Shown here in pieces: positions 39,823 to 58,841 of a stretch of 64,000 nucleotides of DNA. Both the position numbers and the translations under genes were made by a program. Numbering within the stretch: the stretch's first letter is position 1; each line of letters begins with the position of its first letter. A model generated the notes under the pieces. It ran no database searches. It was given only the letters and a program-made list of their open reading frames with translations, and was not told the DNA's origin. Source of the DNA: Paenibacillus spongiae (GTDB taxonomy: Bacteria > Bacillota > Bacilli > Paenibacillales > Paenibacillaceae); NCBI RefSeq assembly GCF_024734895.1, contig NZ_CP091430.1:2064501-2128500 (forward strand), written 5' to 3'.

Positions 39823-39859
39823 ACAGCCATACAGGTATCCGACCTGTGTGGCTGTTTTT
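39823..39859 (+). terminator. Terminator of the sugar importer operon
   Basis: ACAGCCATACAGGT (39823-39836) pairs with ACCTGTGTGGCTGT (39842-39855) with one mismatch, followed by five T. Confidence 0.85.
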
Positions 39860-40049
39860 CATTGATCTTAAGGGAAATTCGATCTGTGAAGCGGCGATGG
39901 ATCCAATCTTTCATTCAACCGATATACATATAAGAGCGAGCAGAGCCGGAAGAACAGTTCAGGAGAAGTGCTAGCGGGCGCTCCCCTGATTGGATAGGGC
40001 TATGAGTATCGCTTTGGAAATAGAAATGGATATGGTTATAACATTGTAA

Positions 40050-40233
40050 TCATGTATTTAATACAACAATGGACAGGCAATAGCTCTGACGATGCGGATA
40101 TTGTTGCATATTCTACAAGAATTTCCCTTAAATAGCGGCTAATCCATGATTTCATAACCACATTCCTGTATAAAGTACAACAATTCGGCCATTGGGGGCT
40201 TAATGATGGAATAATGTTGTACGTTATACAACA
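40050..40233. repeat. Four phased copies of an interrupted palindrome (TGTTGTA-N5-TACAACA type)
   Basis: Copies: TCATGTA-N5-TACAACA (40050-40068), TGTTGCA-N5-TACAAGA (40102-40120), TCCTGTA-N5-TACAACA (40164-40182) and TGTTGTA-N5-TACAACA (40215-40233). All have 7-bp half-sites and a 5-bp spacer. Start-to-start distances are 52, 62 and 51 bp, close to 5, 6 and 5 turns of B-DNA. They occupy the gap before the ECF sigma gene. The pattern suggests cooperative binding of a dimeric regulator on one face of the DNA. Confidence 0.6.
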
Positions 40234-40394
40234 ATAACAACATCGCATAGATCGGCATCGATCGAATGATAGAAAAAACAAGGCAATCCGGCAACAGCAG
40301 CTGGTTGGAGAAATGCGCAAAAAAAATTCATAGAGCGGGAACCAAACGCCTTACTCGTCCATCTAATAGGCAAAGGGAAAGGAGCTGCACGATT

Positions 40395-40919
40395 TTGGAC
40401 GTGTCGACAACGGTACAGGAAGCGATCAAAGGAACGCGGGAAGCTTTCATACAATTAATACGCGCAAACGAGCAATCCATGTACGCGGTTGCCCGCGGCA
40501 TATTGAAGTCGGATTCGGATGCGGCAGATGCCATCCAGGAGGCGATTCTCAAGGCGTATAACGGAATCGGCGGACTGCGGGAGCCGGCTTATTTTCGCAC
40601 GTGGCTTATTCGAATTCTCATTAATGAATGCAGGCAAATCGCCAGACACAACAGCAAGTTCATTCCGATGATCGGCCTCGTCGAGCGGGAAGACGCGCAT
40701 GGCTTTGAATCGACGGTTGAATTCGACGAGCTGCTCGGCGAGCTGGACCTGGAGCATAAGGAGGTTGTCGTCCTCTACTATATGGAGGATATGTCGGTCA
40801 AGGAGATTGCGCAGCTGCTCGACATTTCGGAAGGCACTGTCAAATCGCGGCTGTACCGGGCGAGAATGAGGCTGGCTGTGCTGCTTAAAGAGACGGAACC
40901 GGAGGTGGGACTGCAATGA
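40395..40919 (+). CDS. ECF sigma factor
   Basis: It starts at TTG 40395, ten bases after GGAG; upstream codons in frame look non-coding. The 174-residue protein has sigma region 2 (MYAVARGILKSDSDAADAIQEAILKAY, promoter melting and -10 contact) and region 4 (VKEIAQLLDISEGTVKSRLYRARMRL, -35 contact). It resembles SigV/SigM/SigW-type factors that answer envelope stress. The stop overlaps the ATG of a membrane partner by four bases. The four palindromes at 40050-40233 lie directly upstream. Confidence 0.85.
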   Translation: MDVSTTVQEAIKGTREAFIQLIRANEQSMYAVARGILKSDSDAADAIQEAILKAYNGIGGLREPAYFRTWLIRILINECRQIARHNSKFIPMIGLVEREDAHGFESTVEFDELLGELDLEHKEVVVLYYMEDMSVKEIAQLLDISEGTVKSRLYRARMRLAVLLKETEPEVGLQ

Positions 40920-42025
40920 AACGTTCATTGCTGGATATCCGCATTAAAGAGAGGCTGCACGTCCATGGAAGCGTGGTGCCGGGCGAAGTGAAAGCCCGAA
41001 TTGACCAGACACTGGAAGGGCTGCCTCACGGAAAGAGGCGCAGGAAGCGTTCACGCTCCTCCTCGTACAAATGGGCATGGGTGGCCGGAATCGTACTCGT
41101 GGCGGGATCGGTGCTGGCTGTGAACGGGAACACCTTCGCAGATACGGTCAAGCCGTTCCTGCAATCGATCTTCGCCTCGATGGGAGACAAGGGCGTATCC
41201 GACCGGCCGAATCAGAAGGAGCTGCCTGTACTGCTCAGCAAGGAAGACAAGGGGTACACGTTACAGATTCATGAGGTTCAATATGACGGGATGCGCCTTT
41301 CCTTCAGCTACTCGCTTGCTCATAAAGACGGAATACCGCAGCAGGATTACGTGAAGCCTGTATTTCAGCTTGACAGCTCCGTGAAGAAGATCGCGCCCGG
41401 GGTACTGAACTCCGATTCGGGGGCGTTGTGGGGCGAGAACAAGATCGGGATCGTCAATTATTTTTTTGACCGCGATGTACCGGACCCGTTCCCGCTCAAA
41501 ATTAACGTACCCCAGATTGCAGTCAGCGGATCCGACGCCGTTGTGAAGCAGATGGTAACTGGCAATTGGAGCTTCGAGATCAAGGAGGACAAGTCCGGTG
41601 ACGTAACGGAGAGAACGTATGACGGTTCATATACAGTCAAGAAGGATGACGTCCAATTCGGAGTGGTCAAGTCGAGAATGGCAGCTAGCGCGGTCATATG
41701 GAGCCTTCATATGGAACTGCCGAGGAATCTGTATAGGGAAGACCCGGATTTCAACTATGGAATGAAATACGAAGTTACTTACGGCGACGGTCTGATGCTG
41801 GGCACAATAACCTCATCGAGCGCAAGCAAGGTCGAGGGTCGAAGCCTGCCCGAGGAGAAGTGGACCGAAATCCGGGATATCCGCTTGTTCACGGAGCCGG
41901 TACCCGAAGGGGTCAAAGCGGTAACGGTCGTCCCTGTCCTAATGGTCTATCCGAAGACGGACAAGGCGGGGGAATATTCGGAGAAGCCGCTGCAGCAATT
42001 GGCGGTGAAGATTCCCCTTTCATAA
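40916..42025 (+). CDS. DUF4179-type membrane protein, probable anti-sigma factor
   Basis: A 369-residue protein coupled to the sigma gene by an ATGA overlap. Residues 1 to about 45 are cytoplasmic and very basic (GKRRRKRSRSSSYK), followed by one membrane helix (WAWVAGIVLVAGSVLAV). A large external part follows with DUF4179 features (YTLQIHEVQYDGMRLSFSYSL). The cytoplasmic piece would hold the sigma factor until a signal outside the cell leads to release. That is inferred from gene order and topology; the short cytoplasmic part lacks a recognisable zinc anti-sigma motif. Confidence 0.7.
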   Translation: MKRSLLDIRIKERLHVHGSVVPGEVKARIDQTLEGLPHGKRRRKRSRSSSYKWAWVAGIVLVAGSVLAVNGNTFADTVKPFLQSIFASMGDKGVSDRPNQKELPVLLSKEDKGYTLQIHEVQYDGMRLSFSYSLAHKDGIPQQDYVKPVFQLDSSVKKIAPGVLNSDSGALWGENKIGIVNYFFDRDVPDPFPLKINVPQIAVSGSDAVVKQMVTGNWSFEIKEDKSGDVTERTYDGSYTVKKDDVQFGVVKSRMAASAVIWSLHMELPRNLYREDPDFNYGMKYEVTYGDGLMLGTITSSSASKVEGRSLPEEKWTEIRDIRLFTEPVPEGVKAVTVVPVLMVYPKTDKAGEYSEKPLQQLAVKIPLS

Positions 42026-45257: not shown

Positions 45258-45399
45258 GTGAAGCCTTATTATAGAAGGAACGCTTGTCATCCGTTAGGAG
45301 AGAGCGGCCGTTAATTGCAGCATAAGGATTCCCTATTTGACGAATACTTTGAAGAAGCTCCACACTTTTCAAACCTACAAGACAGGAGATGAACAGCCC

Positions 45400-45885
45400 G
45401 TGGCAACGAAATCAGGCGACAAGTACAAAAAAATGACCATGTCTCCGAAAGAATATCAAACGTACGCCAAAAACCGGGAACCGTCCCGTTCGATCTTTAG
45501 AAACTGTGTCCGCGCTTTCTTGGTAGGCGGCATCATTTGCTTGTTAGGACAAGTCATCACCGATTTTTTTGTCTATGCCTTCCATATGAGCAAGACGGAG
45601 GCAGGAAATCCGACGGTCGCGGTCCTGATTCTTATTTCGATCGTGCTTACTTGCTTGGGAGTGTATGACAAAATCGCCCAATGGGCCGGGGCAGGGACAG
45701 CCGTTCCCGTTACGGGCTTCGCCAATTCGATGTGCTCCGCAGCCCTGGAGCACCGCAGCGAAGGGCTTGTGCTCGGTGTAGGCGGGAACATGTTCAAGCT
45801 GGCCGGCTCCGTTATCGTATTCGGCGCCGTGGCGGCATTCTTCGTCGGCATTGTCTACATGGCGCTGGGCCTGGAGGGACATTAA
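45400..45885 (+). CDS. spoVAC: Stage V sporulation protein AC
   Basis: GTG 45400 after CAGGAGATG is favoured; a TTG at 45337 would add 21 residues. The 161-residue membrane protein has the SpoVAC pattern: SPKEYQTYAKNREPSRS at the start, then four helices with VPVTGFANSMCSAALEHRSEG between them. SpoVA proteins form the channel through which dipicolinic acid enters the forespore and leaves during germination. It is first in a spoVAC-spoVAD-spoVAE operon; the smaller spoVAA and spoVAB genes of Bacillus subtilis are missing here. Confidence 0.9.
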   Translation: MATKSGDKYKKMTMSPKEYQTYAKNREPSRSIFRNCVRAFLVGGIICLLGQVITDFFVYAFHMSKTEAGNPTVAVLILISIVLTCLGVYDKIAQWAGAGTAVPVTGFANSMCSAALEHRSEGLVLGVGGNMFKLAGSVIVFGAVAAFFVGIVYMALGLEGH

Positions 45886-45887
45886 CG

Positions 45888-46898
45888 ATGCTGCGGGGTA
45901 ATCAAACATGGTGGTTTGATAGGAGGCCGGTCATCATCGGATCGGCGACGGTCGTCGGGCCGGATGAAGGGGAGGGCCCGCTTGCTGCGGATTTCGATCT
46001 CGTACATCCCGAGCTGGATATCCAGCAGAAGAGCTGGGAGAAGGCGGAGCGCCTGCTGCTGGAACAAGCGTCCGATTTCGCGCTGAAGCATGCGAAAGTT
46101 AGCAAGCAGCAGCTTCAATTCTATGTCGGCGGGGACCTCATGAACCAGATCATTAGCAATACCTTCGCCGCCAGAACGATCGGAGCGCCCTATCTCGGCG
46201 TATTCGGGGCATGCTCCACGTCCATGGAATCGCTCGCAATCGCTTCGCTCATCGTCAATTCCGGCTCCGGGCAGTATGTGCTGGCCGGTACGTGCAGCCA
46301 TAACTGCACGGCGGAGAAGCAGTTTCGCTACCCGACGGAATACGGTTCGCAGAAGCCTCCGACAGCGCAGTATACCGTTACGGGGGCGGGAGCCGCAGTC
46401 GTGGCAGCCGAAGGCGTCGGTCCCGTCGTAACCAGCGCTACGATCGGCAAGATCGTCGATCTTGGCATCAAGGATCCGTTCAATATGGGAGCTGCGATGG
46501 CCCCGGCTGCTGTGGACACCATCCAAGCCCATTTCAACGATACGGGCCGGGAGCCGAAGGATTACGATCTCATCGTAACGGGCGACCTCGCGAGCGTCGG
46601 ACACGATATTGCCAAGGATCTGCTCACGCGTGACGGCGTACCGATGGAGCATACCGTATTCAACGATTGCGGCTTAATGGTTTACGATGTCGACCGTCAG
46701 AAGGTGCAGGCGGGAGGCAGCGGCTGCGGCTGCTCTGCGGTCGTTACATACGGTCATCTGCTCAAACGGCTGAGGCAGGGTGAGCTTAAACGGATTCTTG
46801 TCGTCGCCACCGGCGCGCTGCTCTCTCCGCTCTCTTATCAGCAGGGCGAGAGCATTCCCTGCATCGCGCATGCCGTGTCGATTGAGAGCCAACATTAA
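45888..46898 (+). CDS. spoVAD: Stage V sporulation protein AD
   Basis: ATG 45888, two bases after the spoVAC stop, with GGAGGGAC before it. The 336-residue soluble protein has a thiolase-like fold, with FGACSTSMES around the usual active-site Cys region, and SGCGCSAVVTYGHLL near the end. SpoVAD binds dipicolinic acid on the channel. The long open frame before 45888 is a shadow of spoVAC. Confidence 0.9.
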   Translation: MLRGNQTWWFDRRPVIIGSATVVGPDEGEGPLAADFDLVHPELDIQQKSWEKAERLLLEQASDFALKHAKVSKQQLQFYVGGDLMNQIISNTFAARTIGAPYLGVFGACSTSMESLAIASLIVNSGSGQYVLAGTCSHNCTAEKQFRYPTEYGSQKPPTAQYTVTGAGAAVVAAEGVGPVVTSATIGKIVDLGIKDPFNMGAAMAPAAVDTIQAHFNDTGREPKDYDLIVTGDLASVGHDIAKDLLTRDGVPMEHTVFNDCGLMVYDVDRQKVQAGGSGCGCSAVVTYGHLLKRLRQGELKRILVVATGALLSPLSYQQGESIPCIAHAVSIESQH

Positions 46899-46921
46899 AT
46901 GGAAGAAGGAGGGCGCGCCGT

Positions 46922-47272
46922 ATGCATTTTGTTTGGGCTTTTATTATCGGAGGGGCCATATGTGTGATCGGCCAACTCATGTTTGACGTCGTGAAGCTGA
47001 CGCCTGCTCATACGATGGCGGCTCTAGTCGTGACGGGGGCGATCGTGGACGGCGTCGGATTGTATGAGCCGCTCGTCGATTTTGCCGGCGCGGGGGCGAC
47101 GGTGCCAATTACAAGCTTCGGGAACGCACTGGTGCACGGGGCGCTCACCGAATATTATCGCGACGGGTGGATCGGTGTCATTACGGGCATCTTCGATCTG
47201 ACGAGCGCGGGCATCTCGGCAGCGATCATATTCTCGTTTCTGGCCGCTCTCGTGGTCAGGCCAAAAGGGTAG
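46922..47272 (+). CDS. spoVAE: Stage V sporulation protein AE (SpoVAEb type)
   Basis: A 116-residue membrane protein after AAGAAGGAGG, 23 bp behind spoVAD. It has four hydrophobic segments and the motif ATVPITSFGNALVHGALTEY, which parallels the SpoVAC signature. It completes the core dipicolinate channel. A terminator with a T-run follows. Confidence 0.9.
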   Translation: MHFVWAFIIGGAICVIGQLMFDVVKLTPAHTMAALVVTGAIVDGVGLYEPLVDFAGAGATVPITSFGNALVHGALTEYYRDGWIGVITGIFDLTSAGISAAIIFSFLAALVVRPKG

Positions 47273-58559: not shown

Positions 58560-58841
58560 AATCATTTTTATCAGGCGTCGATAAGGAGCAGTAGTTTCAC
58601 GTGGTCAGATTCAGAGATTCGGCGGTAGGTGCGAGCCGGAATGACACGTAGACGAACTCGCCTTGGAGCCGCATGCCCAATCGTTCCGGCTTGATCTGCC
58701 GGTCCGGAAGCATGCCGTATCGCCCGCGTTAAGGGTGTCGAGTGAGCGGATACAAAGCATGTTCTCCGCTAACTAGGGTGGTACCACGGGAATTAATACC
58801 TCTCGTCCCTAGCGTTGTCGCTGGGGATGGGAGGTTTTTTT
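58560..58841 (+). promoter_or_regulatory. T-box riboswitch leader of leuS
   Basis: The T-box sequence AGGGTGGTACCACGG lies at 58775-58789 and would pair with the free CCA end of uncharged tRNA. Stem I covers roughly 58600-58700; GAACTCG at about 58654 contains CTC, a leucine codon, as the probable specifier. The competing terminator is CCTCTCGTCCCTAGCG (58799-58814) with CGCTGGGGATGGGAGG (58819-58834), then seven T. Low charged tRNA-Leu should let transcription pass into leuS. The class is certain; the specifier position is inferred. Confidence 0.9.

Follow-up and report, generated by a model that had tools for sequence, protein, structure and literature searches.

Genes for REP-associated tyrosine transposases (RAYTs) have repetitive extragenic palindromes (REPs) on their flanks; the two diverge together, and the abundance of REPs can be predicted from the gene (sections of PMC2817692 drawn on here). 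The present study concerns a 64,000-nucleotide stretch of the Paenibacillus spongiae chromosome (NZ_CP091430.1, positions 2,064,501 to 2,128,500; the window), in which four phased, interrupted palindromes form an array upstream of a gene for an extracytoplasmic function (ECF) sigma factor. Arrays of this kind and their partner gene resemble REPs, REP doublets forming hairpins (REPINs), and bacterial interspersed mosaic elements (BIMEs) in being dispersed extragenic palindromes whose associated gene is chromosomal and lies next to the repeats that belong to it (for the RAYT side, sections of PMC2817692 and PMC3116915); in addition, as those sections describe for REPs and RAYTs, array and gene co-diverge and array abundance follows gene presence. 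The array-gene pair works like REP/RAYT but is not a member of that class, because neither the partner protein nor the source genome gave a match to a Y1 transposase and because the sites are free of a hairpin constraint. Instead of a Y1 tyrosine transposase, the partner is predicted to be a PD-(D/E)XK-like nuclease with a winged helix after the nuclease domain (PF01797 is absent from the Pfam matches of three partner proteins); unlike REPs, the array sites have no pairing constraint at position 6 and lie, four together, near whole-turn spacing; and, unlike the REP/RAYT arrangement, the best array is usually on one side of the gene, the 3' side. The window array is one copy of a dispersed array, the probable partner of which is a predicted nuclease-winged-helix protein that would bind the arrays and copy them to new intergenic places. 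A description of these arrays, or of the gene-array pair, was not found in the literature searched (open-licence PubMed Central).

A scan of the window for TGTTGTA-N5-TACAACA at up to three mismatches returned exactly four matches (2, 2, 2, and 0 mismatches in order of position), whereas 100 shuffles gave 0.70 on average and never more than 3. Their starts are 52, 62, and 51 bp apart, and the half-site TACAACA is unchanged in three copies and reads TACAAGA in the copy at 40102. The four 7-5-7 palindromes, their distances, and the single altered downstream half-site are thus as a sequence-only reading had described them, and its statement that the motif is that of no recognized regulator is one with which we agree. 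In the source genome (G000; 7.61 Mb, one contig), the array occurs at ∼30 places. The genome scan that the same reading had proposed shows that the motif is denser than chance would give, with 28 exact copies versus 0 for the reversed pattern and 45 more at a single mismatch; this holds at the exact level but not at up to three mismatches, where the excess is drowned (335 versus 323). In this genome, 29 clusters of up to four palindromes could be aligned, some of which include a degenerate member, and there are also fragments (639 and 3375 kb), a cluster of six palindromes (7376 kb), and an extra array match (5813 kb). The linkers of these arrays are mutually related, with pairwise homology usually comprising the array and tens of flanking bases on each side, and the closest relative of the window copy is the copy at 623 kb. 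Rfam has no match to the arrays. The orientation of the array relative to replication is the same in 16 of 24 cases, a weak bias that assumes the origin to be at coordinate 1, and inspection of the listed positions by eye showed no consistent pattern of exclusion from the terminus. Arrays beside one and the same gene were seen in the genomes G004 and G014. The source genome also seems to host another array family besides this TTGYA type, with the form AACGCC-N5-GGCGTT and spacings of 51-62-52 (L054, about 1445-1629).

When open reading frame (ORF) families flanking arrays were counted by genome, a family of ∼221-residue proteins recurred in more genomes (6) than any other. In the source genome, its gene lies at 198.7-199.4 kb, ∼0.36 kb from a sister array and 1.9 Mb from the window array. 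The association was examined in 68 gene loci, 30 of them (L317-L346) from a family search and 38 from 40 regions picked before looking for arrays (L298, which contains no family locus, and L337, a duplicate, were dropped), by a de novo search that assumes the geometry alone and no half-site, with a threshold of 42 set after seeing a null maximum of 41. A four-palindrome array adjoins the partner-family gene in 54 of the 68 loci, as compared with 10 of 288 control windows; the controls include viral contigs from a looser pair scan, and some of the 10 positives resemble real arrays of other families (scores of 47-50 in L054, L118, L120, and L184). The best array is 3' of the gene in 47 of the 54 loci, at a median of 96 bp. 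L322 and L327 have arrays on both sides of the gene, as do L325 and L330 on inspection by eye, the other loci having been scored for the best array alone; for L322 and L327, direct alignment of the two flanking arrays scores above inverted alignment. In L331 (genome G033), four arrays stand in succession beside the partner gene, each spaced 51-62-51.

The geometry beside family genes is constant and the half-site is not, being TTGYA, TTGGA, CTGGA, CTGCA, NGGGA, GAGTCGG, AAGCTGC, CAAGTAG, TTACCGC, and more. A half-site seen beside the gene would be expected to recur across its genome, and of four examined in this way three did so strongly and one weakly. TTGGA occurs 94 times versus 5 in G091, in clusters at 52-62-52, and in lesser excess elsewhere (71 versus 28 in G050 and 40 versus 24 in G000). 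GAGAGT is found 108, 266, 374, and 137 times in G001, G003, G014, and G018, respectively, each versus 0; there are 0 copies in G000, G004, G024, and G042, 8 versus 1 in G005, and 1 versus 1 in G010. CAAGTAG reaches 475 versus 32 in G024 and 649 versus 37 in G042, partly in long 51-bp satellites, and is below controls in the five other genomes scanned. The excess of AACTGGA-N4-TCCAGTT is weaker (32 versus 8 in G018, 38 versus 10 in G011, and 51 versus 17 in G028), with none in G000 (10 versus 16). Similarity of protein and similarity of half-site are correlated across the 54 loci (Mantel r 0.45 for the winged helix and 0.51 for the whole protein, p 0.0005). Across 98 relatives, a close orthologue (at least 59% identity) and TTGYA arrays (at least three pairs) are both present in 13 genomes and both absent from 76, with an orthologue alone in 5 and arrays alone in 4 (p 3e-9); here G034, which has two gene pieces, is counted as a carrier and G077, which has three chance-looking pairs, as contrary. 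In nine close orthologues beside TTGYA arrays (L318-L324, L327, and L331), the recognition region always contains N(F/Y)RT, and beside TTGGA arrays it reads NFRTARKWLR (L328), DFRTARKWLR (L356), and DYRTVRKLLQ (L326); no simple code is claimed for these letters.

A signature D-(x12)-E-x-(D/K) plus a His is conserved in the partner family, with the residues expected of a PD-(D/E)XK site: Asp69 is present in 68 of 68 sequences and Glu82 in 66, position 84 is Asp in 34 and Lys in 34, and His89 also belongs to the signature. Of 120 listed homologues, 17 have a precomputed match to PF18741 (MTES_1575). VIA-align rows span residues 148-220 of the protein, in which a winged-helix fold was found, and the best match in a PDB sequence search (E 0.005) is to the winged-helix part alone. 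Padloc gave weak matches at most (best E 0.0047). The family is present in 78 of the 98 relatives searched (E ≤ 0.001) and, at a stricter E ≤ 1e-10, in 4 of 299 genomes drawn phylum-wide, three of which belong to the window's own family; in the fourth, G458, the gene again adjoins an array. Among plasmids, one distant relative was found (43%). It had appeared that the partner gene of G033 was broken by two TAG codons, and this was dropped since the frame is open and the stops precede the start. A leader hairpin upstream of the partner gene is conserved in 32 of the 68 loci (strict pattern; L317-L346 and L351-L388), with the form AAGAACGTCC-(variable)-GGRCGTT(C)TTTTTT; it resembles an intrinsic terminator or attenuator and as such would hold expression low, and in five gene loci Rfam had no match to it (a T-box and one chance match came up).

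The arrays of relatives have unrelated-looking linkers and the same spacing. In the scan of relatives, the first spacing was fixed at 51-53 and the second was free over 50-64, permitting match lengths of 116-132; among the 80 listed of 120 stretches, lengths are 117-120 or 128-131 and never 121-127, corresponding to a second spacing of ∼52 or ∼62. Neighbor spacings within 75 bp (n = 323 in 120 loci) fall at 50-54 in 238 cases and 61-64 in 83, with two others of 28 and 36, and three genomes belonging to a single genus (L321, L322, and L327) have a middle spacing of 72-74 bp, with one case of 82. The classes of middle spacing are steps of about one helical turn. It should be noted that L161, from a metagenome-assembled genome of Bacteroidetes and apparently a chance match, is kept in the pooled spacing and half-site counts, and that L066-L068, which are single palindromes, are excluded from the analyses of linker folding and half-site covariation. 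In 688 phased palindromes chosen at up to three mismatches with position 6 free, positions 4, 5, and 7 of the half-site are T, G, and A with at least 99% constancy, which arises partly from the selection. The choice of T or C at position 6 is independent across the dyad (295/158/157/75, p 0.55), and the A/T-rich center disfavors pairing (114 pairing versus 266 expected at positions 9/11). Because of this independence and this opposition to pairing, the palindromes look like double-stranded sites for dimers rather than hairpins. A reading of them as RNA or single-stranded DNA hairpins was rejected from the half-site independence together with near-random linker folding energies, which are close to those of shuffles (mean z of −0.08 to −0.44, the middle linker being slightly low at −0.44; flanks −0.05 to −0.18). 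The proposal of the sequence-only reading that a dimeric protein could bind all the sites from the same side of the DNA, at distances close to whole turns, is supported by the spacing clusters and the independence across the dyad, and its expectation that spacing and half-sites would be kept in relatives holds for both.

The same observations bear on the idea that the arrays are of the REP/REPIN kind and that a Y1 (HUH) tyrosine transposase moves them by acting on single-strand hairpins. Dispersed extragenic palindromes with an associated gene are what the sections of PMC2817692 describe, and Y1 genes are present in G042 and G039, two of the 10 array-bearing genomes; however, Y1_Tnp (PF01797) is unmatched in the other 8 of the 10 searched, including the source genome, for which this already contradicts the idea, and the lack of base-pair covariation at position 6 and of linker folding beyond that of shuffles makes this explanation highly improbable.

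With regard to mechanism, we infer that the partner protein binds, cuts, and copies the arrays. One dimer would occupy each palindrome and read the half-site (here TTGYA) through its winged helix, and bending of the DNA may be eased by the A/T-rich center; whole-turn spacing would align four dimers on one face to give a single complex, in which the PD-(D/E)XK domain could nick or cut the DNA at the array. Repair or replication would then copy the array elsewhere, and the same process could expand arrays into 51-bp satellites. In TnsA of Tn7, a restriction-endonuclease-like domain is followed by a winged helix. The domain order of the partner is similar, but the three scanned members list DUF559 or MTES_1575 in Pfam and not TnsA, and no other transposition gene was recognized among the recurring array-neighbor families shown. 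The MTES_1575 and DUF559 (Vsr-like) nucleases are similar to the partner in weak family matches and a conserved acidic/lysine signature, but the partner has a C-terminal winged helix and is linked to dispersed palindrome arrays; it differs from winged-helix repressors of the BlaI/MecI type in being fused to a nuclease-like domain and in having dispersed, four-fold phased arrays as its sites. On balance, the system may well represent an undescribed class of repeat and nuclease, in which four phased dimers on four palindromes would cut DNA and write their own arrays, with a half-site code for each gene lineage on a fixed scaffold of 5-6-5 turns. If so, the arrangement of a gene with dispersed palindromes known from RAYT/REP would have been invented a second time, independently, around another enzyme and on double-stranded sites in helical phase, and it would account for hundreds of palindromes in some Paenibacillus and related genomes, as well as for CRISPR-like 51-bp satellites, which bears on the annotation of repeats in Paenibacillus genomes. 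Dozens of natural protein/half-site pairs on one scaffold would be a ready code for DNA reading by winged helices, and cooperative assembly, given that the geometry is fixed, is open to direct test.

Of eight orthologous array pairs, the four that align well were compared, and changes were found at 11 of 191 positions in the arms, 93 of 422 in the linkers, and 378 of 1580 in the flanks, with 5 gaps within arrays and 79 in flanks. When 155 arrays from all genomes were classified by gene context with a crude ORF caller, 52 were between convergent, 88 between tandem, and 15 between divergent genes. These results are pertinent to the principal rival explanation, that the arrays are chromosome-organizing sites, bridged or wrapped mostly between converging genes by the winged-helix protein acting as a nucleoid or domain-boundary protein, with the nuclease domain having a structural use or serving repair alone, and with copies spreading rarely and being kept for a host function. 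The retention of arms and spacing at orthologous loci while linkers drift, the bias of convergent over divergent regions, and the near whole-turn phasing of four sites are consistent with it, but array presence is patchy within the genus (the exact motif in 2 of 22 genomes, the source genome included, and at least three looser pairs in 6 of 22), half-sites change between relatives, the nuclease residues are nearly invariant, and satellite expansions occur; an organizing role is considered possible but rather unlikely. That the arrays are remnants of a dead transposon, with spacing and arms merely inherited, would agree with the linker homology within a genome, yet across genera an unchanged spacing goes together with linkers that are unrelated and half-sites that differ, arms are conserved while linkers diverge at orthologous loci, and the co-divergence of gene and half-site contradicts it, so that it can be given scarcely any credence.

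Several points weigh against binding and copying of the arrays by the partner protein. Arrays are kept at orthologous places and their arms are conserved there, which suggests a benefit to the host rather than simple selfish spread. Neither an exact insertion boundary nor an empty site was found, and inspection by eye revealed no target duplication; the ends of homology between copies vary around the array, and a search for empty sites gave no clean boundary. In the Pfam scan of three members, the nuclease half scored below cut-off, at most 17.5 for DUF559 (cut-off 20.6) and 23.4 for MTES_1575 (cut-off 38.2); Foldseek gave no match at E ≤ 0.001, with AbaSI a weak match at rank 49 (E 0.017), and no solved relative of this half was found. 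With respect to the association, the gene loci share descent and hence are not independent events, and 8 of the 54 positives are near-identical tandem units of 51/52 bp, for which the score is easier to reach. Moreover, 14 of the 68 loci are below threshold (among them, by pattern or by eye, L325, L330, and L341 show an array and L333 a pair). At least three TTGYA pairs are present without a close orthologue in G003, G005, G038, and G077 (probably by chance), and five genomes have the orthologue with fewer than three pairs; of these five, G091 has TTGGA arrays instead, and G028, G045, and G058 show NTGGA-type palindromes beside the gene. Finally, there is a mild excess of pairing at half-site positions 1 and 2 (547 versus 498 and 521 versus 509 expected), which could stem from mixing of lineages.

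The window array occupies the gap separating a permease gene from the ECF sigma factor gene, whose product matches sigma-70 regions 2 and 4 in Pfam. The called ORF start of this gene (40266) falls within the repeat unit; a TTG downstream is preceded by AGGAG and is likelier to be the start codon. The protein encoded next, a DUF4179 protein, is presumably an anti-sigma factor. The sequence-only reading had placed the array upstream of the sigma factor gene, but a link between the two is not supported: the array is not specifically a promoter element of the sigma gene, because it occurs at ∼30 places, no family of neighbors is common to most of them, and arrays in convergent regions outnumber those in divergent ones. 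The listing of flanking genes, which that reading had also proposed, yielded no neighbor family beside most arrays, and the sigma factor is probably an incidental bystander. A more general form of the idea is that a regulator on four phased sites controls the ECF sigma operon in the window and, at other arrays, further genes; the operator-like palindromes and the end of the array ∼160 bp 5' of the likely sigma start would suit such operators, but this explanation is very unlikely in view of the lack of a common neighbor, the avoidance of divergent (promoter) regions, and the 3' location of the best array in most partner loci. When the 1306 ORFs flanking arrays were clustered and the 40 largest clusters inspected by eye, no transposase was recognized among them; no family scan of these ORFs was made. 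Features of the window are given in the following table.

Coordinates of the array and neighboring features in the window (palindrome orientation set against the family alignment)
Feature	Position	Strand	Remarks
Palindrome P1	40215..40233	−	TGTTGTACGTTATACAACA, exact
Palindrome P2	40164..40182	−	TCCTGTATAAAGTACAACA
Palindrome P3	40102..40120	−	TGTTGCATATTCTACAAGA
Palindrome P4	40050..40068	−	TCATGTATTTAATACAACA
Dispersed repeat unit, window copy	40027..40318	−	Span aligning at 86% with copy at 623 kb
ECF sigma factor gene	40395..40919	+	Likely true start TTG at 40395; neighbor, functional link improbable
DUF4179 protein gene	40916..42025	+	Next after sigma gene; Pfam
Terminator-like inverted repeat, then Ts	39823..39855	+	3' of upstream permease gene

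Short tandem repeats are ∼6-fold denser within 250 bp of arrays than beyond 1 kb (146 loci of at least 7 kb); their share of non-ORF sequence is 5.7-6.4% in the nearer zone, ∼1% in the farther one, and 0.4% in the arrays themselves, as if from slippage or repair synthesis close to arrays. Long satellites with 51-bp units, each containing one palindrome, were seen in G024, G042, L194, and G033 (C1:2058000-2058421), and could be called CRISPR by repeat finders. Among viral contigs, a looser pair scan gave matches in 68, of which one is a 51-bp satellite contig with Paenibacillus-like arrays and the others are taken to be mostly chance. Elsewhere in the window, the ORFs at 45337-47272 resemble what we take to be the sporulation genes spoVAC-spoVAD-spoVAE, and a T-box leader (Rfam RF00230) is located at 58569-58813.
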